Of a stretch of DNA of 64,000 nucleotides, positions 464-50,144 are shown one piece after another; the first letter of the stretch is position 1; every line of letters begins with the position of its first letter. The notes under the pieces are model-generated. The model was given only the letters and a program-made list of their open reading frames with translations, searched no databases and was not told where the DNA came from. This stretch comes from Nitrospinaceae bacterium (lineage in GTDB: Bacteria; Nitrospinota; Nitrospinia; Nitrospinales; VA-1): contig BQJC01000001.1 of NCBI GenBank assembly GCA_021604505.1, positions 1,199,501 through 1,263,500 of the forward strand, read 5' to 3'. The position numbers and the translations under genes were made by a program.

Positions 464-3151
464 ATGAGATTTGACCGGATGACCATAAAACTGCAGGAAG
501 CCCTCGCTGCTTCTCAGTCCCTGACGGAAGAAGACAGCCAGCAGGCCATAGAAAGCGAGCACCTCCTCCTGTGCCTGTTGAAAGATTCTGAAGGAATCGC
601 CTCCGCCCTGGTTAAAAAAGTGGGTGTGGACCCAGGCCGGTTGATCAATGAACTCGATGTCAGCCGGAAAAGTTTTCCGCGCGTCACCGGTGGGGCGAGT
701 CAAGTGTACCTCTCTTCTTCCTTGAAAGAGGCGCTGGACAAAGGCTTTGAAGAAGCCCGCCAGATGAAGGACGAGTTTTTAAGCGCCGAACACGTGTTTC
801 TTGCCGTCGCGCAAAACCCGAAGTCGAGCGCCGGAAAGATTTTTCAGTCTCTGGGGCTGTCCCGCGACGCGTTGTTGAAAGCCTTGATGACCCTGCGCGG
901 AAGCCATCAAGTCACCGACCAGAATCCGGAATCGAAATATCAGGTGCTCGACCGTTTCTGCATCGACCTCACCGAAAAAGCCCGAAACGAAAAACTCGAC
1001 CCGGTCATTGGCCGCGACGCCGAAATACGGCGCGTGGTGCAGGTATTGTCGCGCCGCACCAAAAACAACCCGGTCCTGATCGGCGAACCGGGCGTGGGTA
1101 AAACCGCCATTGTGGAAGGCCTTGCTCAGCGTATACACCGCCGCGACGTTCCCGAAGGATTGAAAGACAAACGCATCCTCATGCTGGATTTGGGACAACT
1201 GGTTGCCGGCACAAAATACCGCGGCGAGTTCGAGGACCGTTTGAAAGCCGTCTTAAAAGAAATCAACCACAGCGAAGGAGAGATCATTCTCTTCATTGAT
1301 GAGATGCACACCCTGGTGGGAGCAGGGTCCGCCGAAGGGTCCATGGACGCATCCAATATGCTCAAACCGGCTTTGGCCCGGGGAGAATTGCATTGCGTCG
1401 GCGCCACCACACTCAGCGAGTATAAAAAACACATCGAAAAAGATGCGGCCCTGGAACGCCGGTTTCAACCCATTATGGTGGGCGAACCGACGGTGGAAGA
1501 CACAATTTCCATTTTACGCGGGTTGAAAGGCAAATACGAAGTGCATCACGGGGTGCGTATTCAGGATGCGGCCATCCTGGCGGCGGCGCGTTTGTCGCAC
1601 CGCTATATCGCGGATCGGTTCCTTCCCGATAAGGCCATCGACTTGATCGACGAAGCGGCTTCCAGTCTGCGCATGCAGATCGATTCCATGCCCGCCGAGA
1701 TCGACACGTATCAAAGAAAGATCACCCAGCTGGAAATCGAGCGCGAAGCCCTCAAGAAAGAAAACGATGCGGAATCCAACCGTCGGCTGGAACAGACCGG
1801 AAAAGAAATTGAAGCCCTGAAAAAAACCTGCACCGCCATGCAGGAGCAGTGGAAGCAGGAAAAGAAAATCATCGAAGAAAAACGGGGCCTGCAGGAAAAA
1901 ATTGAACAAACGAGACAGGAAACCGAAAACGCCGAGCGCGAAGGACGCCTGGAACACGCGGCAGAGTTGAAGTACGGCAGTCTGCCGCGACTTCAAAGCG
2001 AAGCTGACGAACTTGAAAAGCGGTTGAAGGAAGCCCAGGGCGAAGGCCGGATGCTCAACGAAGAGGTCGGCGAAGAAGAAATTTGCGCCATCATTGGCCG
2101 CTGGACCGGAATCCCGGTCGAACGCATGTTGCAATCGGAAAAACACCGCTTACTGCAAATGGAAGGTGTTTTGCAAAAGCGCGTCGTCGGACAGGACGAT
2201 GCGGTGCGTCTGGTGTCGAACGCCATCCGCAGGGCACGCGCCGGATTGCAGGAGCCCAATCGGCCCATCGGTACATTTTTATTCCTGGGGCCGACCGGGG
2301 TGGGCAAAACTCAACTGGCACGATCGCTGGCGGAGTTTCTGTTTGACGACGAGCAGGCCATGGTGCGTATCGACATGTCCGAATACATGGAAAAACATTC
2401 CGTCGCCAGGCTCATCGGGGCGCCTCCCGGTTACGTGGGTTACGAAGAAGGGGGGTACCTGACCGAGCACGTGCGCCGCAAACCCTATAGCGTCGTGTTG
2501 TTCGACGAAATCGAGAAAGCCCATCCGGACGTGTTCAATCTGTTCCTGCAGATTCTTGACGAAGGACGGTTGACTGACGGCCACGGCAAGACCGTCAACT
2601 TTAAAAACACCGTCATCCTCATGACCTCCAATATCGGCGGAAAATTGATTCAGGACGCCGGATTGGAAGCCGCGGAACTGGAAAGCCGGGCAGGGGGGGA
2701 CGATAAAGGCGTGTGGGAAGCCGGGTATGAAAAGGTTCAGGAAGCCGTCCGGCAGGAATTGCGAAACCATTTCCGCCCGGAGTTCTTGAACCGGATCGAC
2801 GACATCGTTTTGTTCCGCAACCTGAGCCGCGAGCAGATCAAAGAGATCGTGGAGGTGCAGTTGACCGATCTCAGGAAACGCCTGGCCGAGAAGCGCATGA
2901 CTCTGCATCTGTCGGACGCCGTCAAGGATGTCCTTGCAGAAAAAGGTTACGACCCCGTGTTCGGGGCGCGGCCCTTGAAACGGGCGGTGCAGAAATACCT
3001 TCAGGACCCGATTTCCATGAAAATTCTCGAGGAAGATTTTATTGAAGGCGATGACATCAGCGCCGAAACCAACGGCGCTTCCGAGAAATTCGTCTTCAAA
3101 AAATCATCCGCCAGCCGGGTTTCAGATGAACACGAAGAAGCGAACAAGTAA
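464..3151 (+). CDS. clpB: ATP-dependent chaperone ClpB (disaggregase)
   Basis: Hsp100 hexameric disaggregase that threads aggregated proteins through its pore together with DnaK. At 895 aa it is slightly longer than the usual 850-870. Order: Clp N-domain (about 1-150); AAA+ 1 with Walker A GEPGVGKT at 207-214 and Walker B LFIDE near 277; a long charged coiled-coil M-domain (about 400-530), which separates ClpB from ClpA/ClpX; AAA+ 2 with GPTGVGKT near 609 and [11 protein letters not shown] near 677; and the C-terminal D2-small domain with [11 protein letters not shown]. The first ATG follows a weak GAGATAAG ribosome site. A second ATG lies five codons downstream. The last 30 residues are Ser/Glu/Lys-rich and probably disordered. 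Confidence 0.97.
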
Positions 3152-3171
3152 AGCATTTCCTTTCCTATTGA

Positions 3172-3801
3172 TGCAAGGAATCTAATATTAAAGCTGAAGA
3201 CCTAATAGAAATAATCAAAGATGATCTTAACTTAGCAAAGGAACAAAACGTCCAAACAATAACAATTGAAAACTTTGAAGCTTGGTACGATGATCTCAAA
3301 AATTTTGTAAAAGATCATCCCGAACCGGAGTCGTCATCCGCTGAACAAAATAATTTAGAAGAATACAAGGCAAATGTTCAGAGAGGTTTTGAGCATTACA
3401 GAGCAATACAACAACATAGGTTAGAAGTTTTCAAAACCGTAGTTAATGCAGGTCAAGCTGCCTTAAAAAGCGCAATTTTGATAAATGGGGGTGGATCGGT
3501 GGCCATTCTTGTCTTTATTGGAAATATTCTCAAACCCGGTGACCCTATCAAAACCGCCCTTGTTCACTCATTAGGCGGTTCTTTAAGAATGTTTGCAATC
3601 GGAACGCTTTGCGCCGCAATGGCTGCTGGTGGCACCTATCTTGTTCAATTTTTAGATGCTGCTGGGTTAGATAGTAAGCACCCAAAAATATGGCGTGGGG
3701 TGGCTCTTTTTTTTAATATCCTGGTAATCGCCACTGTGATTTATTCATATACTCGATTTTGGTTGGGAGTGGATTATGCTTACTTAGCTTTTTCAAACTA
3801 A
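3172..3801 (+). CDS. Uncharacterised three-TM protein, start codon missing
   Basis: An open frame runs from the TGA at 3169-3171 to the TAA at 3799-3801, about 209 codons. It has no ATG, GTG or TTG before TTG 3478, yet the upstream part reads as real protein: a charged helical stretch with FEHYRAIQQHRLEVFKTVV leading into the first hydrophobic segment. Three hydrophobic segments follow: INGGGSVAILVFIGNIL, MFAIGTLCAAMAAGGTYLVQ, and a last one near IWRGVALFFNILVIATVIYSYT. ATG 3171 is one base out of frame, so a small indel just after the start, or an ATT/ATA start, would explain the picture. Base use is clearly more AT-rich than clpB or addA, which suggests transfer. I do not recognise its function. 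Confidence 0.5.
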   Translation, partial: CKESNIKAEDLIEIIKDDLNLAKEQNVQTITIENFEAWYDDLKNFVKDHPEPESSSAEQNNLEEYKANVQRGFEHYRAIQQHRLEVFKTVVNAGQAALKSAILINGGGSVAILVFIGNILKPGDPIKTALVHSLGGSLRMFAIGTLCAAMAAGGTYLVQFLDAAGLDSKHPKIWRGVALFFNILVIATVIYSYTRFWLGVDYAYLAFSN

Positions 3802-4099
3802 GTGTTTGCCGTCAGCTAAAGGTGGAACATTTAAGGTAAAAAGCTAAGAGATACTTTCTACTAAACTTTCCTCAGCCGAAAGAGGTCTTTCGGGGGCTAA
3901 AGAACATCTGGCACTTTCTGTAAGGTGGAATGCCAACTAGTGAAAATAAAATTAGAGGAATAAATTTCCAAAATTCCGGTTTCCGTTATATTTGAGCGCA
4001 AAACCTTAAGGGGTTTGCGTTCCAACCGGCGGGAGGGTCGCTCCTCCCTCCCGCTTTCCTGTTTTAGTTGACCAACACAACTTCTTTGAGTTAGTAGTT
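3802..4099. other. Intergenic region between convergent genes
   Basis: AT-rich 298-base spacer. A possible hairpin is present: GCGGGAGG near 4031 pairs with CCTCCCGC near 4047, followed on the plus strand by TTTCCTGTTTTAG. It may be a weak terminator for the upstream membrane gene. Otherwise I see nothing. Confidence 0.35.
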
Positions 4100-7000
4100 T
4101 TATACGACTTCAACCAGCTTTTTGTGCAGGGGATAGTAAAGCGCTTTTTTAATGGGCCGTGATTCGCCCTTCAGCTTTATCAGCTCTTCGTATTGATCCA
4201 GTTGCGGTTTGTAACGCTTGATCTCTTCTTTAAAATAATGCTCCAGATCCGCCCCCTGATGTTCCCCGGTTTTGTAGTCGATGATCCAACGGGTGCCCTG
4301 TGCATCGACGAAGGTGCGGTCGAGGATTCTATTTACATAGCGGTTATCGATAAATCCTGTAAGGGAGTATTCGGATTGACCGTCCTCATGATTCGTTAAA
4401 ATCCAGCGCCCGGATTCATCCTCGAGGGTGTTTTGAAGGGCTGTCATGCCGGCTCGAACGGTTTCGTCCAGTTGCGTCGGCGGCAGGCCTTCTTCCAGCA
4501 GGGCGGTTTTCAGTTTCGCCTCCAGACTGCCGAGAGTTGCGGACCAGCGATCCACGCCCTGATCGGCGATGTCCTTGAAACAGCGGTGCAGGACGTTGCC
4601 CAGACAGCGGGCCCTGTTCCCCGCCCAGACATATTCCGGATGAAGTTCGGCATCATATTCGCTTTCCGGTGCGGTATCAATCGCGATGTCCGGCAAGGGA
4701 TCCGGGAAGTGAAAATCCTGTGGCAGACGGTAAAAGCTATGGGATGTTGCTTTTTCCTGCGGGGTCGCAATTCCGGCTTCCTCCAGAGTGCGGGACAGAC
4801 CCCGTTTCCATTCCTCACCGAGATAGGGCCAGAGTTTGGACAGCAGGGAGTTTTTTTCCGGATAGATGCTTTCATCTTTTTGCTTCGCATGGCCAAACAG
4901 ATGAAGCTGTTTTTTTGTGCGGGTGGCCGCAACATAGAGCAGACGCAACGATTCGAATTCATCTTTTTTGCGGTCCATACGGGATAAAAAATCGTAGACC
5001 TGAGAATTGGGGCCGCCGCTTTCTTCGATCGGCGCCAGAAGGAGATCGTCTCCGTGCGGAATCCAGTACACGAGTCGTTTTTCTTCCGCTTTCGATAACT
5101 TTCCCAAACCGGGAAGAAGGACGTGATCGAATTCCAGTCCCTTGGCTTTGTGCATGGTCATGACCTGCACCGGGTTTTCCGTGGAGACGGACGGGCTGGC
5201 GTATAAATTGTTCAGGACATTTTGAAATTGATGCAGTTGGAAAAAATCGCCCGCTTCAACGGTTTTGGTGACTTCATCAAAAAATACCTCAATGTCCTCC
5301 ATCGTGGTTGGGTCCACACAGGCAGGTCCCCCCAGCCGAATCCAGCACCCTTCCAACAGATCGCGGAAATTTGAATAGGGAAAAGCATCTAAAGTGGGTG
5401 CCATCACCTCAATAAACCGCTTGAGGCGAAGTTGCCCATCCTGGCTCAAAGAACTTATTCGTTCCTCCCCGTTGATCATCTGCCAGACGGTGGAGTCGCT
5501 GTCCAATTCACAAAGGTCGTGCAGATCTGCGAGAAGAAGTCCGCACCAGGGGGCACGCAGGATGGACAACCAGGAGATGCGGTCCCACGGAGAAAGAAGG
5601 GCGCCCATGAGCGCAAGCAGATCCTGAATGGCGGGCCGGGCCGTGAGCGGGTCGATCTCTTCGGCTTTGATGGCGATTCCTGCTTCCTGGAAATGTCTTA
5701 TGATGGCAGGCAGATGGGTTCTCGCCCGCACCAGCAGAGCGACGGTTCTTTCAGGATCGGTTTTTCGCAGAGACAAAACCAGATCGGTGATTTGCCGCGC
5801 TTCTTCATTGGCCCGGTCTTCCAGATTCGTGAAATCGGAAACAGGGTGCAAGGCAATTCCCGGTTCAGGGTCTTCCGGTAAGGCGGCGCTGGATGCAGAA
5901 TAGGATATCGCCCCCAGATCCTCATCGTCGAATTTTGGAAATATGGTGGAAAAACAGGCGTTCACCCAATCGACAATTTTCTTTTGCGAGCGAAAGTTGC
6001 TTTCCAGGGTCAGGGAGTTGAGTTGAATGTCGCCGATTCCTTCCCGTTGGGTGCGTAGAAAAAGCCCCACCTCCGCATCCCGGAACCGATAGATGGATTG
6101 CATGGGATCGCCGACGATGAAAAGCGAGCGGCCGTCGTCCCGTTCCCAGCCTGCGGTGAGCAATTTAAGAAGTTCGTGTTGTTTGAAGGAAGTGTCCTGA
6201 TACTCGTCGACCAGGATGTGCTGGAATTTGGTGTCCAGGTAAAGCAGCAGATCCGTGGGGTCGTCTTCCTTTCCAAGAGCCTTCAATGCCGATAGTGAGA
6301 TTTCCGTAAAATCCGTCTTCTGCTGTTCCGTGAAAATTTTACGGAGCGTGCCCGCGATTTCGGGAAGTAAATTGAGTGTCTCCTTCAAAACATTCCACTC
6401 TTCATCGGTGAACCGGGGCGAAGGTAAATTTTGAACTTCCGCAAGAATTTCACTCAGCTCCGGAATTTTGGCAAGCGAGTCCAAAAGGTCAGAGAGTTCA
6501 TTTTTCTTTTCCTGTGCCTCCGATCCAGCTTTTCCCGCCGGGAAACCTTGATTGACGTTGATGGATTTACGAAATTCCCCTTGTTTGGTCAACAGCAGGT
6601 TCGTTAAAGCTTTCCACACCGCAATATTTTCGACCGAGGAGCCGGGGAGGGCGGTCAATGCTTCCAGGCAATGGCTCGATTCCTCAGGCAGGTTTTGCGT
6701 CAGATTTCGCCCGCTGTAGGCGGCGAGCGGCACGAGTCTTTCGACGGCCTGGGGCGGGAAGGACTTTATGGCATCCTCGAGGACGGTTTCGATCAAACCA
6801 GAAAGGGTCTGTTCCAGATAGGCCCGTGAATTTTCCGTGACGCCAAAGTTGTCGAAAAAAGGAATCATCCATTGATCGCGTTTTTGCAGTAGGTGGATGA
6901 TGCGTTTTAAAAACCCGGATTTTAAATTATCCAGGTGACTGTGAATGGTTCTCACCGAATTGCCAATGGATGAGTTGGATTCGATTTGATGGAGGATTCG

Positions 7001-18604: not shown

Positions 18605-18866
18605 TAGTAGTGATCCCATCTGGAAGGCCGTTTATTCCATTTTTCGATTTTCCACCAGACCCCCTATTGACAATCAGGGAAGCGGGCAACAGATTTAAAA
18701 GACCACATAAAATGTCCAGCAATAAGCAAAAATAAAGACTTTCAATATAAAACTAGACCTGTTGCTTGGGCCATCCCATAGGTTCCCCTCCATTTCGATG
18801 ACCCAACTTTTCCCGCGAATAATTGTTTGAAAAGTGGCGACAGGGTCCCCTTTTGTGGAGGGAATC

Positions 18867-19946
18867 ATGTTTAAATTCCTATTTTCCTTAATAATTTCAA
18901 TAATTTTGGCTTCATCGATTTTTCTGTTTTTCAACCCAGGCTGGAGTGCAACCAAGGTCATCCCCCTGGGAGTGTCTCCAATAATAGCCACCGATTACAT
19001 TCATTCGGTGATCGAAGCGGATCGAACCATTTACTCAAAAATGATCGTGGAGCGCCTTGGGGATGCCATTTCCTTAAAGGCAACGGAGAACTATCTACAA
19101 GAAAATACCCTGCCTCTTCCCGCTCAGTTCCTTTTATTGGCCTCGGAAAACGTTGCTTCCCAGGGATTGGGAATGACCTACCGGCTTATGAGTTTGTGGC
19201 CCATTAATCGCCAAAACGGCCCAACAGACAGTTTTGAAGAAAATGGGCTGAAGGAAGTAAGAAATAACCCGAATAAACCCTTTACGACCACTTTCACCTC
19301 AAAAGGGAAACGGATGTTCAAAGCCGTTTATCCTGACAAGGCGGTGAGCAAGTCCTGCGTCACCTGCCACAATGACCATCCAAAAAGTCCAAAAAAAGAT
19401 TTCAAAATGGGTGATGTGATGGGTGGAATAAGTGTCACCATTCCTCTGGGCAAGAAAGATTTGGTTCCCGCTAAAGTGGTGGCCAATTACATCCATGCCG
19501 TTTTGGAATCGGACCGCATGATATATGCAGAATACGTCGTCAATCGGCTGCAAAATAACAATATTGTCAACGCCTCAGAACATTGGTGGAAAGATAAAGC
19601 TTTGTTGCTCCCGGCCCAGTTTTTACTCAACGCTTCCGATCTTATCGCCCATCAACGTATGGGGCTCATGTACAAACTTTACAGCCCGTGGCCGATCAAT
19701 CAGTATAACCGGGCTGTGACCGAGTTCGAACAAAAAGGAATGGAAGTCGTCGCAAAGAACCCGAAAGAAGCGTTTATGGGAACCCATGAAGTCCATGACC
19801 GGCAATTCTTTGAGGCAGTCTATCCGGATCTGGCGGTTTCAGACTCTTGTGTCACCTGTCACAATACGCATCCCAATAGCCCTAAACGCGATTTTAAGCG
19901 CAATGATGTGATGGGAGGAATCATGTTGAGTTTTCCGGTCAAATAA
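18867..19946 (+). CDS. Tandem DUF3365 (Tll0287-like) di-haem c-type protein
   Basis: A 359-aa exported protein made of two copies of the DUF3365 module. Each copy has an N-terminal helix (DYIHSVIEADRTIYSKMIV / NYIHAVLESDRMIYAEYVV), an LPLPAQFLL / LLPAQFLL turn, an LWPINRQN / PWPINQYN loop, and CVTCHNDHP / CVTCHNTHP. The haem sites CVTCH are at 164-168 and 328-332, exactly 164 residues apart. Starting at ATG 18867 (GGAGGG seven bases upstream) gives a clean signal peptide ending about NPGWSA; the ORF's GTG at 18834 lacks a ribosome site. Single DUF3365 domains serve as haem sensors of kinases and chemoreceptors; a free tandem form may be an electron carrier or ligand sensor. Confidence 0.9.
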   Translation: MFKFLFSLIISIILASSIFLFFNPGWSATKVIPLGVSPIIATDYIHSVIEADRTIYSKMIVERLGDAISLKATENYLQENTLPLPAQFLLLASENVASQGLGMTYRLMSLWPINRQNGPTDSFEENGLKEVRNNPNKPFTTTFTSKGKRMFKAVYPDKAVSKSCVTCHNDHPKSPKKDFKMGDVMGGISVTIPLGKKDLVPAKVVANYIHAVLESDRMIYAEYVVNRLQNNNIVNASEHWWKDKALLLPAQFLLNASDLIAHQRMGLMYKLYSPWPINQYNRAVTEFEQKGMEVVAKNPKEAFMGTHEVHDRQFFEAVYPDLAVSDSCVTCHNTHPNSPKRDFKRNDVMGGIMLSFPVK

Positions 19947-42410: not shown

Positions 42411-42439
42411 TTGACAAATGAATTTCCATGGTCTATATT
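42411..42439 (+). promoter_or_regulatory. Promoter of the cytochrome P460 gene
   Basis: TTGACA (42411-42416), 17-bp spacer, TATATT (42434-42439). Box 1 ends four bases before it, and box 2 starts six bases after it, near the expected +1. Confidence 0.75.
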
Positions 42440-42445
42440 TCATTA

Positions 42446-42462
42446 AGTATCGAGTCAATACT
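42446..42462. promoter_or_regulatory. MarR-type box 2
   Basis: AGTATCGAGTCAATACT: AGTAT/ATACT inverted arms around seven bases. It covers the expected transcription start of the P460 gene, so binding should block it. Confidence 0.65.
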
Positions 42463-42495
42463 AGTAAAAACGATCACTTTCAGGAGGTAAATCCA

Positions 42496-42978
42496 ATGAA
42501 GCTCATTGCGGCATGTTTAACGGCGGTATGTCTCTATATCTCTGCGCCCGGAGCGTACGCAGACAGTGGAAAGGTTGAATATCCGGAAGGTTACCGTCAG
42601 TGGGTGCATATCAAGTCCATGCTCCTTGAGCCCGGACATCCTTTGGAAAACCCGTTTCAGGGCTTGCACCATGTTTACGGCAATAAGAACGCGTTGAAAG
42701 GGTTTGAAAACGGCAGTTTTCCGGATGGTTCCGTCCTGGTATTCGATCTTTTGCAATACAGCCGGGGCGGCCATGCCATTCAGGAAGGCGAGAGAAAGTT
42801 AATCGGCGTGATGAAAAAGGATAGCATGGCATTCAGTGCCACTGGCGGGTGGGGGTTTGAAGCGTTCCCCAAAAACTCCAAAAAAGACCGCATCGTGAAG
42901 GATGGAGGAAAAAGCTGTTTTCAGTGCCACACCTCTCAAAGGGAACACGATTTCGTTTTTTCCCGTTTGAGAAAATAA
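42496..42978 (+). CDS. Cytochrome P460 family protein
   Basis: A 160-aa periplasmic c-type haem protein; the family oxidises hydroxylamine and/or NO. Signal peptide of about 22 residues (AACLTAVCLYISAPGAYA). The haem site CFQCH is at 141-145 near the C-terminus, as in P460. WVHIKSMLLEPGHPLENPFQG, HHVYGN and GSVLVFDL are typical. A lysine cross-linked to the haem is expected from the family; I cannot tell which lysine. ATG 42496 has AGGAGG nine bases upstream; the ORF's longer start overlaps the promoter. Regulated by the adjacent MarR-type protein by position. Confidence 0.9.
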   Translation: MKLIAACLTAVCLYISAPGAYADSGKVEYPEGYRQWVHIKSMLLEPGHPLENPFQGLHHVYGNKNALKGFENGSFPDGSVLVFDLLQYSRGGHAIQEGERKLIGVMKKDSMAFSATGGWGFEAFPKNSKKDRIVKDGGKSCFQCHTSQREHDFVFSRLRK

Positions 42979-43706: not shown

Positions 43707-44018
43707 CTATTCAACTCTTACACAAATATCCTCTCCCTGCACTTCAACAGGGAAGACCTGGGTTTTGAGGGCCGGGTCGATATTGCAGTCTCCGGTCTTC
43801 AAGTCGAAGCGGTAGCCGTGGTTCGGGCATTTGATGCCGAAGCCGTCCAGCGTTCCGCGGATCAGGGGCGCCGTTTTTTTATGCGGACAGGTGTCGAAGA
43901 TGGCGTAGTATTGCCCCTCTATATTGAAGATGCTGATCTTCTTACCTTGCACCTCCACCCGTTTGCGGGCATCCGGGGGGATTTCCTCGACTCTGGCGAC
44001 GGGAATGAATTTGCTCAT
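43707..44018 (-). CDS. Rieske [2Fe-2S] ferredoxin-like protein
   Basis: A 103-aa cytosolic protein with the cluster ligands Cys44-x-His46 and Cys64-x2-His67 (TCPHKKTAPL; KCPNHGYRFDLKTGD). Small single-domain Rieske proteins are electron carriers for oxygenases or NirD-like subunits of nitrite reductase. The start overlaps the rhodanese stop by four bases, so the two are translationally coupled. Confidence 0.9.
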   Translation of the reverse strand: MSKFIPVARVEEIPPDARKRVEVQGKKISIFNIEGQYYAIFDTCPHKKTAPLIRGTLDGFGIKCPNHGYRFDLKTGDCNIDPALKTQVFPVEVQGEDICVRVE

Positions 44019-44962
44019 ACACCCTCCGCAGGCAAATCAGGGTTCGCGCTCCAGTCCCACCACGAGCCGTCGTAATTGCGCACCGAATACCCCAGACTGC
44101 GGAACGCGTAGTAGGCCATGCCCGAGCGGATGCCTCCGGTACAATACACCACAATCTCCTGATCACGGCGAATGCCCTTTTCCTGCAGCAGGGTGGACAA
44201 ATCCTCACGTTTCTTTAATACCCCTTCTTGGGTAAAAAACTCTTCCCAGGGAATGTGAATGGCTTTGGGAATGTGGCCGCCGCGCTTCGATCCATAGGGC
44301 GTGTCGCCATCGTATTCTTTTTTTGTGCGATTATCGATGATCGCCAGCTTACCCGATTCCAGGTTGGCGTGAATCCATGAACCCACCGCCGCAACCGCAT
44401 CATCCAGACGAATATCTTTCGCCGATAAGGAGGAAGGAGAAACCGGTCCCTGCTTGCCCCTTTCAATTTCACCGCCGGACTGTTTCCACGAATCCAGCCC
44501 TCCGGTCAAGATATGAACCGATTGGAAGCCGAAACGCTCAAACATCCATAAAAAGCGTCCATCGGTGCGCCAGCGGTCGGTTGGATCTCCGTAGATGACG
44601 ATAATTTTCTGTTTGTCGATGCCCAGAGGTTGCAGTTGGCCGACGATAAATTGCGGGTCTTCGATCAATATTCCTTGAACGCCGCCCACTTTATGCGTGA
44701 AATCACGCCAGTCGGGCAGGTTCACCGAGCCTGGGATATGCCCCAGAAAATACTTCCAGCCGGACCGTGTATCGATGACGACGGTCGCATCTTCTGGGAG
44801 GCTCCGCAACTGTTCCGCGGTCATGGAAACAGAGTTTTCCACAGCCTTTGCCGGGGCCGGAGCCGCATTCCAACCCAGGGAAATAAGGAGAACGGCGGTC
44901 AAAAAGAACCCCTTAATTTTTCTTGACAAGTCCCCGTTATCGTTAGTAATATCATGCTTCAT
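44015..44962 (-). CDS. Exported double-rhodanese sulfurtransferase
   Basis: A 315-aa protein with a hydrophobic N-terminus (GFFLTAVLLISLGWNAAPAPAKA) that should send it to the periplasm. Two rhodanese domains: the first, about 45-165, lacks a catalytic cysteine (VIYGDPTDRWR where Cys would be); the second, about 180-310, has YCTGGIRSGMAYYAF with the active-site Cys. This inactive-active pair is the thiosulfate/3-mercaptopyruvate sulfurtransferase layout. Possible role in periplasmic sulphur transfer or cyanide detoxification. The Rieske gene follows. Confidence 0.9.
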   Translation of the reverse strand: MKHDITNDNGDLSRKIKGFFLTAVLLISLGWNAAPAPAKAVENSVSMTAEQLRSLPEDATVVIDTRSGWKYFLGHIPGSVNLPDWRDFTHKVGGVQGILIEDPQFIVGQLQPLGIDKQKIIVIYGDPTDRWRTDGRFLWMFERFGFQSVHILTGGLDSWKQSGGEIERGKQGPVSPSSLSAKDIRLDDAVAAVGSWIHANLESGKLAIIDNRTKKEYDGDTPYGSKRGGHIPKAIHIPWEEFFTQEGVLKKREDLSTLLQEKGIRRDQEIVVYCTGGIRSGMAYYAFRSLGYSVRNYDGSWWDWSANPDLPAEGV

Positions 44963-45247: not shown

Positions 45248-46327
45248 ATGACGACGAGCGACAACGAGAAAGAAAACGAGTCTAAAGAGGATAAGAAAGA
45301 CGCGACAGACGACCGGCTCGAGGAAATTAAAAAGGAGGAGCAGGAGGACGCAAGTTCCTACTATGCTCAAGGCAAGGAGGAAACCCCTGACCTGAAGGAA
45401 GAGTTTGAAACGCCGGTTCCCGAGGTCGACAAGGCCAAGGAAGATATGAATTTGTTGCGCGCCGTCGCTTTTCTGGGTTTTGGATTGGCCGCTCTGGCGA
45501 TCATCTTTATTCTGTTCTTCATCCGCGACCTCGATGAGCGGGTGGGCGGAGTGGATTCTGCAGTCACCAAAGTGGATTCCGCGGTAAACAAACTTGAAGA
45601 CACGATCGGTCCCTTAAAATCTGAAGTTGAGACAAGCATCAAAGCCGTTGAGGCTAATCTCAATGCAGTGGCCCAGACCGTTGCCGGATTGCAAGGCAAG
45701 ATGGGCGATTATGAGAAGTCAATGGCCATCATGGAATTGAAACGCGCCTTGGTGATGGTCCAGGGAATTTCGATGGGATCCGATAGTGGAGTTCAGTCGA
45801 AATCCTCCGAGGTGGCGGCCAGCATTCAATCCCTGTTAAGCGAGTTGAGCGCAGGCACAGCGACCGCTCAGGAACCTGCCGGAGAGATACAGGTCCAGGA
45901 AGCGGCTGAGGAGTCAGCACCGCCTGCTATGGAAGAACCCGCAGCATCTGAACCGGAAGAAGCCGCTGAAGAAGAAACTGCTGAGGAAGAAGCCGCTGAA
46001 GAAGGTGAAGAAGGTGAAGAGGAAGCCTCGGGCGAATCCGAAGAGGGCGAGTCTGAAGAAGGCGAGTCTGAGGAAGCAGGCGAAGAATCAGGAGAAGCCG
46101 AAGAAGGCGAGTCTGAAGAAGGTGAATCTGAGGAAGGCGAGTCTGAAGAAAGTGAATCTGAGGAAGCAGGCGAAGAATCAGGAGAAGCCGAGGAAGAAGC
46201 CGCCGAGGAGACTGCCGAAGAAGCTTCTGAAGAAGGAGACGCCGAAGAACCTGCGGGTGACGAGGCAGCAGAAGCGGCTGCCGAAGGGGACGAACTTCCC
46301 ACCGTTGAAGAACTTCTTGCAGAGTGA
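45248..46327 (+). CDS. Very acidic single-TM protein with Glu/Ser/Gly repeats
   Basis: A 359-aa protein. An acidic, charged N-terminus (1-65) precedes one TM helix (LLRAVAFLGFGLAALAIIFI, about 68-92), then a coiled-coil-like region (VDSAVTKVDSAVNKLEDTIG; 100-170) and a long tail (about 215-350) made of EEGES/EEAGEESGEAEE repeats. The tail is coded by near-identical 15-33-base DNA repeats at about 46030-46195. The end PTVEELLAE is conserved-looking. The tail should be disordered and highly negative. GGAGGAG ribosome site. Function unknown; resembles no enzyme. Confidence 0.75.
   Translation: MTTSDNEKENESKEDKKDATDDRLEEIKKEEQEDASSYYAQGKEETPDLKEEFETPVPEVDKAKEDMNLLRAVAFLGFGLAALAIIFILFFIRDLDERVGGVDSAVTKVDSAVNKLEDTIGPLKSEVETSIKAVEANLNAVAQTVAGLQGKMGDYEKSMAIMELKRALVMVQGISMGSDSGVQSKSSEVAASIQSLLSELSAGTATAQEPAGEIQVQEAAEESAPPAMEEPAASEPEEAAEEETAEEEAAEEGEEGEEEASGESEEGESEEGESEEAGEESGEAEEGESEEGESEEGESEESESEEAGEESGEAEEEAAEETAEEASEEGDAEEPAGDEAAEAAAEGDELPTVEELLAE
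46030..46195 (+). repeat. In-frame tandem DNA repeats in the acidic tail
   Basis: Repeats of GAAGAAGGCGAGTCT and the longer GAGGAAGCAGGCGAAGAATC units, in frame, encoding EEGES and EEAGEES. The reverse frame gives a spurious Ser-rich ORF. Such tracts can vary in copy number. Confidence 0.7.
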
Positions 46328-46333
46328 CAGTGA

Positions 46334-46363
46334 GTTTAAAACAGCCTGTCGGCTGTTTTAAAC
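46334..46363 (+). terminator. Hairpin terminator after the acidic protein gene
   Basis: Perfect 13-bp arms GTTTAAAACAGCC / GGCTGTTTTAAAC around TGTC, seven bases after the stop codon. The T-run is inside the stem. Confidence 0.7.
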
Positions 46364-46505
46364 TGTGATCCGGTCCACCTTGACAGCAAGCCATTATTGC
46401 CTCACGGTTTGTTGCAATTTGTCAGTCACGAGGTGACTTCGAAAATACGATTCGGTTCCAATATTGTAAATAACGAACCGCAAGCAAACCTCACCGACCC
46501 TCAAT

Positions 46506-46832
46506 ATGCCAGCAATCAAATTTGTCATCTCCATACTGTTTCTAATCTGCCTCGCCGCCTTTGCAGTGTTGAATCGCGGCTCGGTTCCGGTTTTCTATTA
46601 CGACCTGCAGTTCTTAAAACAATCCCTGGAGGTTCCCTTAGTTCTGGTCGTTCTTATTCCCTTTGCCATGGGGTTCGTGATTGCATGGTCGTTCATGGTC
46701 GTGAATCGGGTGAAATCCAATGCCATGATAAACAAAAGGAACCGCACCATCGCATCCCTGAACGAGGAATTGGAGCGCTTTAAAGCTCATCCTCAGATAC
46801 CCGCATCGGTCAGCAGTCAGCATCGAGATTAA
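46506..46832 (+). CDS. lapA: LapA-domain inner-membrane protein
   Basis: A 108-aa protein with two TM helices (VISILFLICLAAFAVLNRG and VPLVLVVLIPFAMGFVIAW), an NRGSVPVFYYDLQ loop typical of LapA/YciS, and a C-terminal helix (ASLNEELERFKAHP). LapA with LapB controls LpxC turnover and so lipopolysaccharide level; lapB is not in this window. No ribosome site is obvious. Confidence 0.8.
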   Translation: MPAIKFVISILFLICLAAFAVLNRGSVPVFYYDLQFLKQSLEVPLVLVVLIPFAMGFVIAWSFMVVNRVKSNAMINKRNRTIASLNEELERFKAHPQIPASVSSQHRD

Positions 46833-46875
46833 CCCCTCCACACCGTCGGAGTTCTTTTAACGATTCCTATCGAGA

Positions 46876-47670
46876 CTATAAGTCGTCGAGAATTTTCTGA
46901 CGTTTAATATGATATTCCTCATCATTTATTAAGCCATCCTGTTTCAAATCCTCAAGAATATTCAGCCGGTTTTTTATATCCAAACTTTGCGGGCCGGGAC
47001 GGACAGGTTGTTTTTCTTCAGAAAGAAGAGGAAGTTGGATGATTCCTTTGGAATCGGGTTTGATCTTATTAAATACCACCCAATTGGTGAGGTCTTGCGT
47101 AAGACCCTTAATTTTTTCCTTCGTTTTATAAGACTGATGGGTGAGCGGAACCAAACGCCAGGGAAAGCCACTGACGGAAAAATCATCCACGGTTCTTCGT
47201 TTTTTTTGAATGGCAGTCAATCGCCAATGGAGCCCCTCGAAGGTTAAAAAAGTATCTCCCGCCAGAATAGTTTTTCCAGAAGCATTTTTTACCCGGAAAA
47301 CGATGCGTTGATTCCGGTCGGCCAGTAAAAAATTTTTCCGAATCATGGGCGCCAGACGCCGGGTCAGAGCGGTATTGAACACCCGTCTCTTATTGGACCA
47401 GGAGACTCCTCTTTTTTGATAGGCCAGGGAACTCATGATTTTATTAAGCGCAACGATGTCGAACCGGTAGGGTTGAATCATTTTCAGATTGTAATTTTGT
47501 ATTTCACCGTATTCGAACGATTGGACCGAAACAGATATTTTAAAGGCATCTGTTGGAAGTTGTGCCGCAAGGATGGCTTTAGGGAAAAATAAAATATAGA
47601 GGCAGGATAAAGCTATAATTCGTAATTGGCCCCGTTCTGGTTTTAATAGGCCATAGTTGAAATTTGCCAT
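46876..47670 (-). CDS. Exported protein with SHOCT-like C-terminus
   Basis: About 264 aa from ATG 47670. The ORF's earlier start (47760) runs into the upstream porin gene, so I use the internal ATG, which gives a signal peptide (IIALSCLYILFFPKAILAAQ). The middle part is a beta-rich domain of unknown type (FKISVSVQSFEYGEIQNYNLKM ... TILAGDTFLTFEG). The end, LNILEDLKQDGLINDEEYHIKRQKILDDL, is a SHOCT-type short helical hairpin, usually an oligomerisation motif. It follows the haem-porin gene by 19 bases and is likely its partner. Function unknown. Confidence 0.65.
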   Translation of the reverse strand: MANFNYGLLKPERGQLRIIALSCLYILFFPKAILAAQLPTDAFKISVSVQSFEYGEIQNYNLKMIQPYRFDIVALNKIMSSLAYQKRGVSWSNKRRVFNTALTRRLAPMIRKNFLLADRNQRIVFRVKNASGKTILAGDTFLTFEGLHWRLTAIQKKRRTVDDFSVSGFPWRLVPLTHQSYKTKEKIKGLTQDLTNWVVFNKIKPDSKGIIQLPLLSEEKQPVRPGPQSLDIKNRLNILEDLKQDGLINDEEYHIKRQKILDDL

Positions 47671-47689
47671 ATAAAATGCCAAGAAAAAA

Positions 47690-48904
47690 TCAATAGGCCA
47701 GAACGATTCCCAGAACTCCCGTATGTTCCTTCTCCGGGTGAAAGCGGTTGGTATCTTCAATATCAGCCGTAACTTCGGCGAGTAGATTTAGGTTTCTCAT
47801 CAAGTAGTAGGTCAGATTTGCGGTAACCGTATTGGCATCGAGTTCTTGTCGTCCGTACACCTTGACCCGGTTATACAGGAGAGACAAAAGCCAATCCTCC
47901 TTAAATTTCTTAGTCACCCCCGCAAACCCTCCCCATGAACGGGTATCATCCACGGGACCCGTCCTGAACTTCGGGTTCGAGTCTTCTCCGTAAAGAAAAT
48001 TTCCCCAAAGGTTCCAGTCTTCAAACAACCAGAAACTAAATACCGGTCCTACCCTGAAAAATTCATTGCGGATTTTAGCAGAATTTTTTCCCCGGCCACT
48101 ATAGGCATAAACTCCTATATTTTGTTCACCTAGCGAAAAATCCACTTTGCCATAGAAATTCTTAAAATTGTCCGAATCAAAATTTCGATCACTGTCCGCA
48201 ACGCCAATCCCGTTGCCGTTGGCTACCCCCGCGACCAGTCCCATGCCGAGGTTTTCGGTCACATCGAAATTGTAAGTCATTTCGACGACGCGGTCGTAAG
48301 TGAGGCGAAACCCGCTATCGCTGATAGCCGTGACATAATAAGTAAAGTCCTGAAACGTGAGACGCTGTTCGCGGGGAAACAGCACGTCCGTCACCTGGAA
48401 CTGGCCGAATCGGAGATCGAGATCGACGTCTTTATACGCGTCGTTTAAATGGATAAAAGCATCCTCGACGCCGCCCGTGTCCCCCCGTTCATCAAAAAGA
48501 AAGTAGAAATAATAGGAGATCTTTTCAGTCAGCGGTGCGCTGGATAATATTTTAATAGTGAAGGGGCCTTCAAAATCCGTGTTGGTTTCCGTGTCGTTTC
48601 GGACCCTGAAAAACGAATCGGCGCGAATGGCCAAAGGCAGGTGGTTTAAAAGCTGCAACTTTTCGTCACCCGTCTCGACGTTTTGTTCAGCGAGATCATT
48701 TTCGGCAAAGCGGTAACCGTTTCCTGCAAACGCTTCCCCGAAGCTGTTGAGTTTGGGAAATCCTATATGACAGGTCGTACAGCTTATCTTGTAATTTCTG
48801 GCAAACAGGGGAATGGCTTCAGCCATACTGGCCATTAAATGGAAAGCGGGCAAGAGTACAAAAAATGAAGTGACAATGAACTTTATTCCCGCATTTTTTA
48901 CCAT
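47690..48904 (-). CDS. Mono-haem c-type beta-barrel outer-membrane protein
   Basis: A 404-aa protein: a signal peptide (to about AEA at 30), an N-terminal haem site ISCTTCH (Cys42, Cys45, His46) in LFARNYKISCTTCHIGFPKLNSFG, then a beta-strand-rich barrel of alternating Tyr/Phe/charged residues (LDLRFGQFQVTDVLF, FRLTYDRVVEMTYNF, IGVYAYSGRG, WLLSLLYNRVKVYG) ending in an aromatic C-terminal residue (VLAY). One haem fused to a porin is the Cyc2 architecture (outer-membrane electron entry), though this sequence is not obviously Cyc2 itself. ATG 48904 has AAGGGGG upstream. Confidence 0.8.
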   Translation of the reverse strand: MVKNAGIKFIVTSFFVLLPAFHLMASMAEAIPLFARNYKISCTTCHIGFPKLNSFGEAFAGNGYRFAENDLAEQNVETGDEKLQLLNHLPLAIRADSFFRVRNDTETNTDFEGPFTIKILSSAPLTEKISYYFYFLFDERGDTGGVEDAFIHLNDAYKDVDLDLRFGQFQVTDVLFPREQRLTFQDFTYYVTAISDSGFRLTYDRVVEMTYNFDVTENLGMGLVAGVANGNGIGVADSDRNFDSDNFKNFYGKVDFSLGEQNIGVYAYSGRGKNSAKIRNEFFRVGPVFSFWLFEDWNLWGNFLYGEDSNPKFRTGPVDDTRSWGGFAGVTKKFKEDWLLSLLYNRVKVYGRQELDANTVTANLTYYLMRNLNLLAEVTADIEDTNRFHPEKEHTGVLGIVLAY

Positions 48905-49079
48905 TGAGAACCCCCTTTAACCACTCAACAACAATCGAATGCAATCAATCGTGACGCCATCTTATATGTGGACTTTGAAGAAATTTGAATACCGATGAGT
49001 AACTTATACCACTATTTCTTCAAAAACATAATAGGGCCTAAAATTTCATATTTTTGATTTTGATAACCAAACTTATTTT

Positions 49080-50144
49080 CTATTTAAAGTTATCTTCGGG
49101 TTGTTGCTGGGTGACGCAATGGATGGAACCAAACCCCTGCACCAGTTCCCGGCAGGGGATGGGGACGACCTCTCGCTCCGGGAATGCTTCCTGTAGGATG
49201 GACCGCGCCTTTATATCGTTTGCTTTGTTGTAAGCGGGAAGCAGAACCGATCGGTTTCCAATATAAAAGTTGGCGTAGCTCGCAGGCAATCGACCAGTGG
49301 GCCCTGTGACTTTTCCCGGCATGGGCAGGCGGATGATGTTCATCGCATTGCCATCCTGATCGGTGGCGGATTTCAGCGTGTCGTAGTTGTCTTTCAAACC
49401 CTTATAGTTTGAATCGCTGGAGTCTTCTTCATAAGCGCAGAGAATGGTGGTGGGATTGACAAATCGGGCGAGATTGTCGATGTGGCCGTCGGTGTCGTCG
49501 CCTTCCATTCCGCCCTTCAGCCAGAGGACTGTTTTCACTCCAAGATAATTTTTCAAGAAACCTTCCATGGTGTCTTTATCCATTCCCCCGTTGCGATTGG
49601 GGTTGAGCAGACACGGCTCCGTGGTCAGACAAGTCCCCCTGCCGTTGACATCGATGGCGCCTCCTTCCAGCACGATGCCCGGCTCGAAGGTTGGCAGATT
49701 CAATAACTGCGCGATTTTTCCCGCGGTTTCATTGTCGTGCAGTAAGTCGTCGTACTTGCCGCCCCAGGAATCGAACTCCCAATTGTTGAAGGCAGTCTTC
49801 CGTTTTTCCTTTTCCCCGCTCACCAGAAAGTTGGGGCCGTAGTCGCGAATCCAGGCGTCTTTTGTCGGAATGATGTGCAAGCGAACCCGGTCGAGCGTAA
49901 TTCCTGCATTGCGGATCTTATTTTCTACAGATTTTTGGGAGGCCTGGTCGTTCACCAGAATATGGACCTCTTCACCGGGAACGAGAACGCGAATCATGGC
50001 GAGGTAGGTTTTCTCGACTTCGGGTAAAACGGACCGGTCCCAGGTTTCCCGGTTGTGCGGCCAGGCGAGCCATGTGGCGGCGTGCGGTTCCCATTCCGCG
50101 GGCATGCGGTAACCCTGTGCGGCGGGATAGGGGCGGTCAGTCAT
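49080..50144 (-). CDS. aguA: Agmatine deiminase
   Basis: Hydrolyses agmatine to N-carbamoylputrescine and ammonia. From ATG 50144 it is 354 aa; the ORF's earlier start would run 159 bases into the upstream gene in another frame. Family segments: MPAEWEPHAATWLAWPHN, DAWIRDYGPNFLV, VLEGGAIDVNG, GDDTDGHIDNLARFV, and the catalytic Cys in GFGSIHCVTQQQP near the end. It overlaps the end of the aguB-type gene by eight bases, so the two steps of one pathway are co-translated. Confidence 0.93.
   Translation of the reverse strand: MTDRPYPAAQGYRMPAEWEPHAATWLAWPHNRETWDRSVLPEVEKTYLAMIRVLVPGEEVHILVNDQASQKSVENKIRNAGITLDRVRLHIIPTKDAWIRDYGPNFLVSGEKEKRKTAFNNWEFDSWGGKYDDLLHDNETAGKIAQLLNLPTFEPGIVLEGGAIDVNGRGTCLTTEPCLLNPNRNGGMDKDTMEGFLKNYLGVKTVLWLKGGMEGDDTDGHIDNLARFVNPTTILCAYEEDSSDSNYKGLKDNYDTLKSATDQDGNAMNIIRLPMPGKVTGPTGRLPASYANFYIGNRSVLLPAYNKANDIKARSILQEAFPEREVVPIPCRELVQGFGSIHCVTQQQPEDNFK

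Follow-up and report, generated by a model that had tools for sequence, protein, structure and literature searches.

The 64-kb stretch of Nitrospinaceae DNA analyzed here (the window) carries, on its minus strand, a gene for a Cyc2-like monoheme porin followed by a gene for a secreted protein with a SHOCT tail. The features of this locus are listed below.

47690..48904 (-), Cyc2-like monoheme cytochrome-porin, 404 aa (ORF, motif, family alignment, AlphaFold2 model)
48815..48904 (-), predicted signal peptide, residues 1-30, ending in AEA (hydrophobic stretch; A at -1 and -3)
48797..48817 (-), AXPXFAR motif, AIPLFAR, residues 30-36 (as the defining passage of PMC8406198 gives it)
48767..48781 (-), CXXCH heme c attachment site, CTTCH, residues 42-46 (sequence)
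48749..48757 (-), PXL motif, PKL, residues 50-52 (sequence)
47693..48631 (-), predicted 16-stranded β-barrel, residues 92-404 (AlphaFold2 strands; Foldseek and VIA-align matches to 16-strand porins)
48299..48394 (-), third extracellular loop (long; mature residues 141-172), which likely forms the constriction (AlphaFold2 topology)
46876..47670 (-), secreted partner with a SHOCT tail, 264 aa when read from the ATG at 47670 (ORF)
46888..46968 (-), SHOCT tail of the partner (PF09851)

A preliminary description of this DNA had placed a partner gene 19 bases downstream of the porin gene, and this was correct: the porin ORF spans 47690-48904, and the second ORF has an ATG at 47670, 19 nt past the porin stop codon. 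It had also proposed that the porin follows the Cyc2 plan, with a single CXXCH at the mature N terminus and a β-barrel behind it. The protein begins with a signal-peptide-like stretch, called by eye and from the residues at -1 and -3, that ends in AEA and is followed by IPLFARNYKISCTTCHIGFPKL; the first Ala of AXPXFAR is residue -1 of the predicted signal peptidase site, and the sole CXXCH spans C42 to H46. The segment after the heme site reads CTTCH-IGF-PKL, so that PXL follows at the spacing of about 4 aa expected of Cyc2, and the length of 404 aa exceeds the Cyc2 minimum of 365 aa. At the [Q/K][T/Y] consensus after the core motif the porin has N-Y, which differs at the Q/K position and fits at the T/Y position; many of its relatives have K-Y. 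According to the sections of PMC8406198 that deal with it, the Cyc2 consensus itself varies between clusters. The porin had no Pfam match above the cutoff, and a PDB sequence search gave no match at an E value of 1. An Rfam scan of positions 46000-49500 returned nothing at the gathering score, and a promoter and terminator scan found three promoter-like sites (shuffle mean, 4.1) and eight terminator-like sites (shuffle mean, 3.6; standard deviation, 1.9), the latter mostly on the plus strand and inside genes.

The AlphaFold2 model of the porin, built from 87 sequences (pLDDT, 89; pTM, 0.87), has 16 barrel strands, counted from the DSSP line, behind a helical N-terminal part. This is the strand number that the preliminary description had expected. 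Foldseek ranked OmpK36, OmpC, and OmpF first (E = 5e-13), and VIA-align placed OprO first (Z = 25.0; root mean square deviation [rmsd], 3.0; 299 residues aligned) and OprP second (Z = 24.8; rmsd, 3.2; 301 residues aligned), with Omp32 and OmpC tied with these two within 1 Z unit. According to PMC8406198, published Cyc2PV-1 models used these two porins, OprO and OprP, as templates. Among the 87 sequences, many of the most conserved residues fall in the N-terminal domain and in loops L2 to L4, and L5 to L8 are variable. The third and fourth loops hold conserved charged residues (D143, R148, E149, R151, D156, D213, D215, and K218), the first five of which, in the third loop, are at least 90% conserved.

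The heme site is a property of the whole family. A search of named genomes with the pattern AIP[LAV]FAR[KRN][YH], in which CXXCH was not specified, fetched at least 551 relatives. In the best 80 of these, CXXCH occurs 3 to 8 residues beyond the motif in all 80, and PX(L/I/V) follows it in 79. Since CXXCH was no part of the pattern, its presence in every one of these relatives indicates that the site is not due to chance. The first heme Cys is mature position 12 in all 110 family members compared, from several groups, as counted with a pattern that admitted Cys at positions 10 to 14 only. Ala precedes the predicted mature start in all 110, of which 71 had Ala, Pro, Phe, Ala, and Arg set by the search pattern and 39 were chosen by similarity to the pattern rather than by the pattern itself; in each of these 39, position -3 is occupied by A, S, or V. 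Our alignment A4 leaves out L003 (the window protein) as well as L006, L026, L027, L029, L030, L032 to L041, L045, L047, and L094, which are duplicates, truncated, lacking a called ORF, or highly diverged.

Of 77 phylum genomes, 33 had some porin match at an E value of 1e-5 and 20 had a close ortholog, 54 to 100% identical; the window genome has a single copy. Some orthologs are broken or cut: at least two are interrupted (by a TAG stop in L019/G039 and by a split in L021/G057), and those of G028 and G035 are cut off where their contigs end. The other 57 genomes, many of them incomplete, lack a close ortholog. The missing and broken copies mean that the gene is dispensable in some genomes. Outside the phylum, full-length relatives with 33 to 42% identity occur, among the matches listed, in KSB1, Zixibacteria, Ignavibacteria, Calditrichota, Bacteroidota, Aminicenantes, Gemmatimonadota, and some Gammaproteobacteria. 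Anaerobic heterotrophy is the lifestyle usually ascribed to the groups from which many of these relatives come. A quick maximum-likelihood tree covered 111 proteins; it has long branches and leaves out the same-contig duplicates L034 to L041, L045, and L157. In it, the 17 window-type proteins cluster together (SH-aLRT, 99) within a larger group that also holds the relatives from outside the phylum (99). This clade stands apart from canonical-looking Nitrospinota Cyc2 proteins and from a Caballeronia protein; the tree includes no named reference Cyc2. Canonical-looking Cyc2 proteins (FARQ..., CHFQ or CHYQ) occur in other Nitrospinota families (L149, L150, L174, L175, and L176), adjoined in L149 and L150 by 9-heme cytochromes and a distant SHOCT protein. 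A plasmid search with the porin gave three records with N-terminal matches only, and one with the L030 protein gave four. Caballeronia plasmid pSBC1_3 (L033, positions 2939-5956) carries, one after another, genes for a HiPIP, a Cyc2-like heme-porin, and a c-type cytochrome. No porin relative was confirmed in a virus search.

Of 71 loci from outside Nitrospinota, 66 were assessable, after removal of one without a called porin ORF (L047) and four with less than 500 nt of upstream sequence; L045, which is from Nitrospinota, was also left out. In 55 of the 66, a pentaheme cytochrome gene in the same orientation precedes the porin by no more than 600 nt, and in 47 of those 55 the gap is at most 70 nt. 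The groups with this gene directly before the porin include Ignavibacteria, KSB1, and Calditrichota, and the 11 loci without a close pentaheme gene are from Gammaproteobacteria (three) and Gemmatimonadota (seven), plus L049, whose pentaheme gene is farther upstream, at about 3 kb. The pentaheme protein matches Cytochrome_C554 and Cytochrome_C7 and, weakly, the NCBIfam ExtKL model (E = 2e-12; 46 bits versus a cutoff of 250). From these conserved neighbors we infer an electron-transfer role for the porin, and that part of the earlier proposal of an electron conduit is supported. The recurrent gene pair also suggests which periplasmic protein exchanges electrons with the porin in the wider family.

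The window genome itself gave no match to the pentaheme protein (L084 as the query) at an E value of 1e-5, and neither a multiheme cytochrome nor another clear electron carrier adjoins the window porin gene. Only three ORFs of at least 90 codons in the window contain CXXCH, none with more than two copies. Mono- or diheme cytochromes adjoin other Nitrospinota orthologs (L035, L037, L038, and L011). The conduit had earlier been extended to a periplasmic pathway through a P460 protein and a diheme carrier. The P460 gene is indeed in the window (42418-42978; PF16694, E = 2.4e-31), but the protein probably taken for the carrier (18831-19946, plus strand), although it has two CXXCH motifs, consists of tandem Tll0287-like domains (PF11845, E = 5.8e-40), which do not support that label. 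We found no gene link between either one and the porin, and we rejected both as members of the pathway. Elsewhere in the window, a small Rieske-type ferredoxin ORF, identified by eye, adjoins a secreted double-rhodanese protein identified by Pfam (43707-44962, minus strand), and positions 45248-46327 (plus strand) encode a protein whose C terminus is a long, repetitive tail rich in Glu. In another Nitrospinota locus (L146, positions 1112-6880), genes for a Rieske protein, cytochrome b, an octaheme cytochrome, a paralogous monoheme porin, a SHOCT partner, and a triheme c7 cytochrome lie together, and this cluster is a candidate route from a heme-porin to a bc-like complex.

The SHOCT tail of the partner, also named in the preliminary description, scored just under the Pfam cutoff in the window (E = 7.6e-6; 25.9 bits versus 27) and above it in the genome search (29.7 bits). 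Relatives of the partner occur in 62 of the 77 phylum genomes. Its close group comprises 18 loci in 17 genomes, and a monoheme porin lies within 3 kb of the SHOCT-partner gene in 12 of them, which makes the partner a real and recurrent neighbor. Seven of these porins are of the window type and point in the same direction as the SHOCT-partner gene; the other five are of a second type, with (W/F)-(A/S)-R-K-Y, and point towards it. In six of the 18 loci a triheme c7 cytochrome gene lies directly upstream of the SHOCT-partner gene. Counted from the porin, the SHOCT partner follows in 7 of 18 assessable loci (20 less 2 cut by contig ends). The loci are related by descent and the counts thus not independent, yet two gene arrangements are seen. 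The AlphaFold2 model of the partner (pLDDT, 88.9) had no structural match in the PDB at an E value of 0.001, and its best VIA-align score (Z = 5.1) involved the C-terminal helices only. The SHOCT protein probably acts in the periplasm, helping the heme-porin to assemble or to dock. SHOCT-family genes are also often found near a sirohem-synthase-like gene (Met8 type, by eye), even without a porin nearby (L144, L145, L151, L155, and L156).

Taken together, the motif, the heme site, the barrel, and the redox neighbors are best explained if the porin is a Cyc2-like outer-membrane electron gate that takes electrons most likely from Fe2+ and passes them to a periplasmic c-type cytochrome, a reading to which we assign a probability of about 0.6. 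The 16-strand barrel, which we infer to lie in the outer membrane, would be plugged at its periplasmic mouth by the N-terminal 50 residues, which would hold one c-type heme. The redox partner, a small solute that is most likely Fe2+, would enter the pore past the conserved, charged constriction loop and exchange one electron with the heme, and the heme would exchange that electron with a c-type cytochrome in the periplasm. In many other phyla this cytochrome would probably be the pentaheme protein encoded just upstream; in the Nitrospinaceae window genome, it would have to be a different carrier. The inward direction of electron flow and Fe2+ as the substrate are the least certain parts of this model. 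Fe(II) oxidation by the window porin is possible; its position outside the canonical-looking Cyc2 clade and the many relatives from anaerobic, heterotrophic groups weaken the case for it. Further points against the gate reading are the absence of an adjoining carrier gene, the N at the Q/K position, the patchy and partly broken copies within the phylum, and the want of a conserved Met or His as a second heme ligand. Published authors consider the function of distant Cyc2 homologs (cluster 3) the most uncertain and warn that distant homologs may serve another purpose. Contig ends of the window genome gave weak type II molybdopterin oxidoreductase matches. If the porin is an electron gate, some relatives of nitrite oxidizers may take up electrons from the cell exterior or discharge them to it, which would connect the nitrogen cycle with the iron cycle.

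The pentaheme neighbors could instead mean that the heme-porin works outward, from periplasmic cytochromes to an external acceptor such as Fe(III), Mn(IV), or other oxyanions, in the manner of Geobacter ExtHIJKL. Ignavibacteria, Bacteroidota, Aminicenantes, and others do pair the porin with a cytochrome that weakly matches ExtKL, but the window genome lacks the pentaheme gene, and the 21 transmembrane domains reported for ExtI are unlike the 16-strand barrel here; we consider outward transfer rather unlikely. The fold allows another view, since it lies near general and anion porins: the protein might be an ordinary solute porin with no respiratory role, its heme being structural or serving as a sensor (a redox-gated pore, or one responding to NO or peroxide). 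Charged residues are conserved in L3 and L4, as in selective porins, and a heme with no conserved Met or His as its sixth ligand could bind small ligands. The heme domain is nevertheless among the most conserved parts of the protein, and most relatives have genes for redox partners next to them, which makes a plain solute porin quite improbable. That no heme is attached at all, CXXCH being a leftover or else a site for a metal or a disulfide, is very unlikely given the CXXCH in all of the best 80 of at least 551 relatives and the first Cys at mature position 12 in all 110 members.

Besides the CXXCH His, no conserved Met or His that could serve as a second ligand occurs near the heme in the 87 sequences, a result that fits an N-terminal amine ligand but also a five-coordinate heme or a Tyr or Lys ligand. 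Because the first residue of AXPXFAR is also the last of the predicted signal peptide, the mature protein would start x-P-x-F-A-R, and its α-amino group could ligate the heme as in cytochrome f. In cytochrome f, the N-terminal amine ligates the heme, and the mature protein starts YPIFAQ or YPVFAQ in solved structures (chains 1ctm and 1hcz start YPIFA), so that both proteins have x-P-x-F-A upstream of CXXCH. Predicted mature N termini read x-(P/S)-x-(F/W)-(A/S)-(R/K) across groups with very different barrels, and position 12 is always the first heme Cys. In cytochrome f, however, the first Cys is at position 21 and the fold is different, and Pfam and PDB profile searches with the N-terminal 50 residues of the porin did not return cytochrome f among their matches. 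The resemblance is thus a short motif only, and it was noticed after the fact. We consider it possible, but on balance doubtful, that AXPXFAR combines a signal peptidase site with a cytochrome f-like mature N terminus whose residue 1 provides the sixth ligand. The idea makes heme ligation in Cyc2-like proteins directly testable. In the passages searched, which did not span the modeling and mutagenesis work on Acidithiobacillus ferrooxidans Cyc2 (Jiang 2021; Su 2025), we found no report of N-terminal amine ligation in Cyc2 or of the pentaheme pairing.

Among known systems, MtrAB and MtoAB combine a barrel of about 26 strands with an adjoining multiheme cytochrome; the window porin has 16 strands and no multiheme neighbor. 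Geobacter ExtHIJKL resembles many relatives of the window porin in joining a pentaheme periplasmic cytochrome to an outer-membrane protein, but it differs from the window locus in the 21 transmembrane domains of that protein and in its rhodanese lipoprotein, and the window genome has no pentaheme gene. Cyc2-like genes have been reported in Nitrospinaceae and Nitrospinota (in the relevant passages of PMC11995701 and PMC11442690), including Nitrospinaceae metagenome-assembled genomes (MAGs) from an Oslofjord tunnel (PMC11995701), and the window porin is therefore not a new kind of protein. Orthologs of the window gene are present in contigs of MAGs OFTM191, OFTM6, OFTM44, and OFTM387 of the PMC11995701 series and may be the genes reported there. 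The window porin departs from Cyc2 in the N at the Q/K consensus position, in its separation from the canonical-looking Nitrospinota Cyc2 clade, and in having a SHOCT partner in place of a Cyc1-type cytochrome. With the fused cytochrome-porins Cyc2, Cyc2PV-1, and Cyt572 described by Keffer et al. 2021 (PMC8406198), it shares the predicted signal peptide, the single N-terminal CXXCH, AXPXFAR, PXL, a length of more than 365 aa, and a predicted 16-strand, OprO/OprP-like porin.
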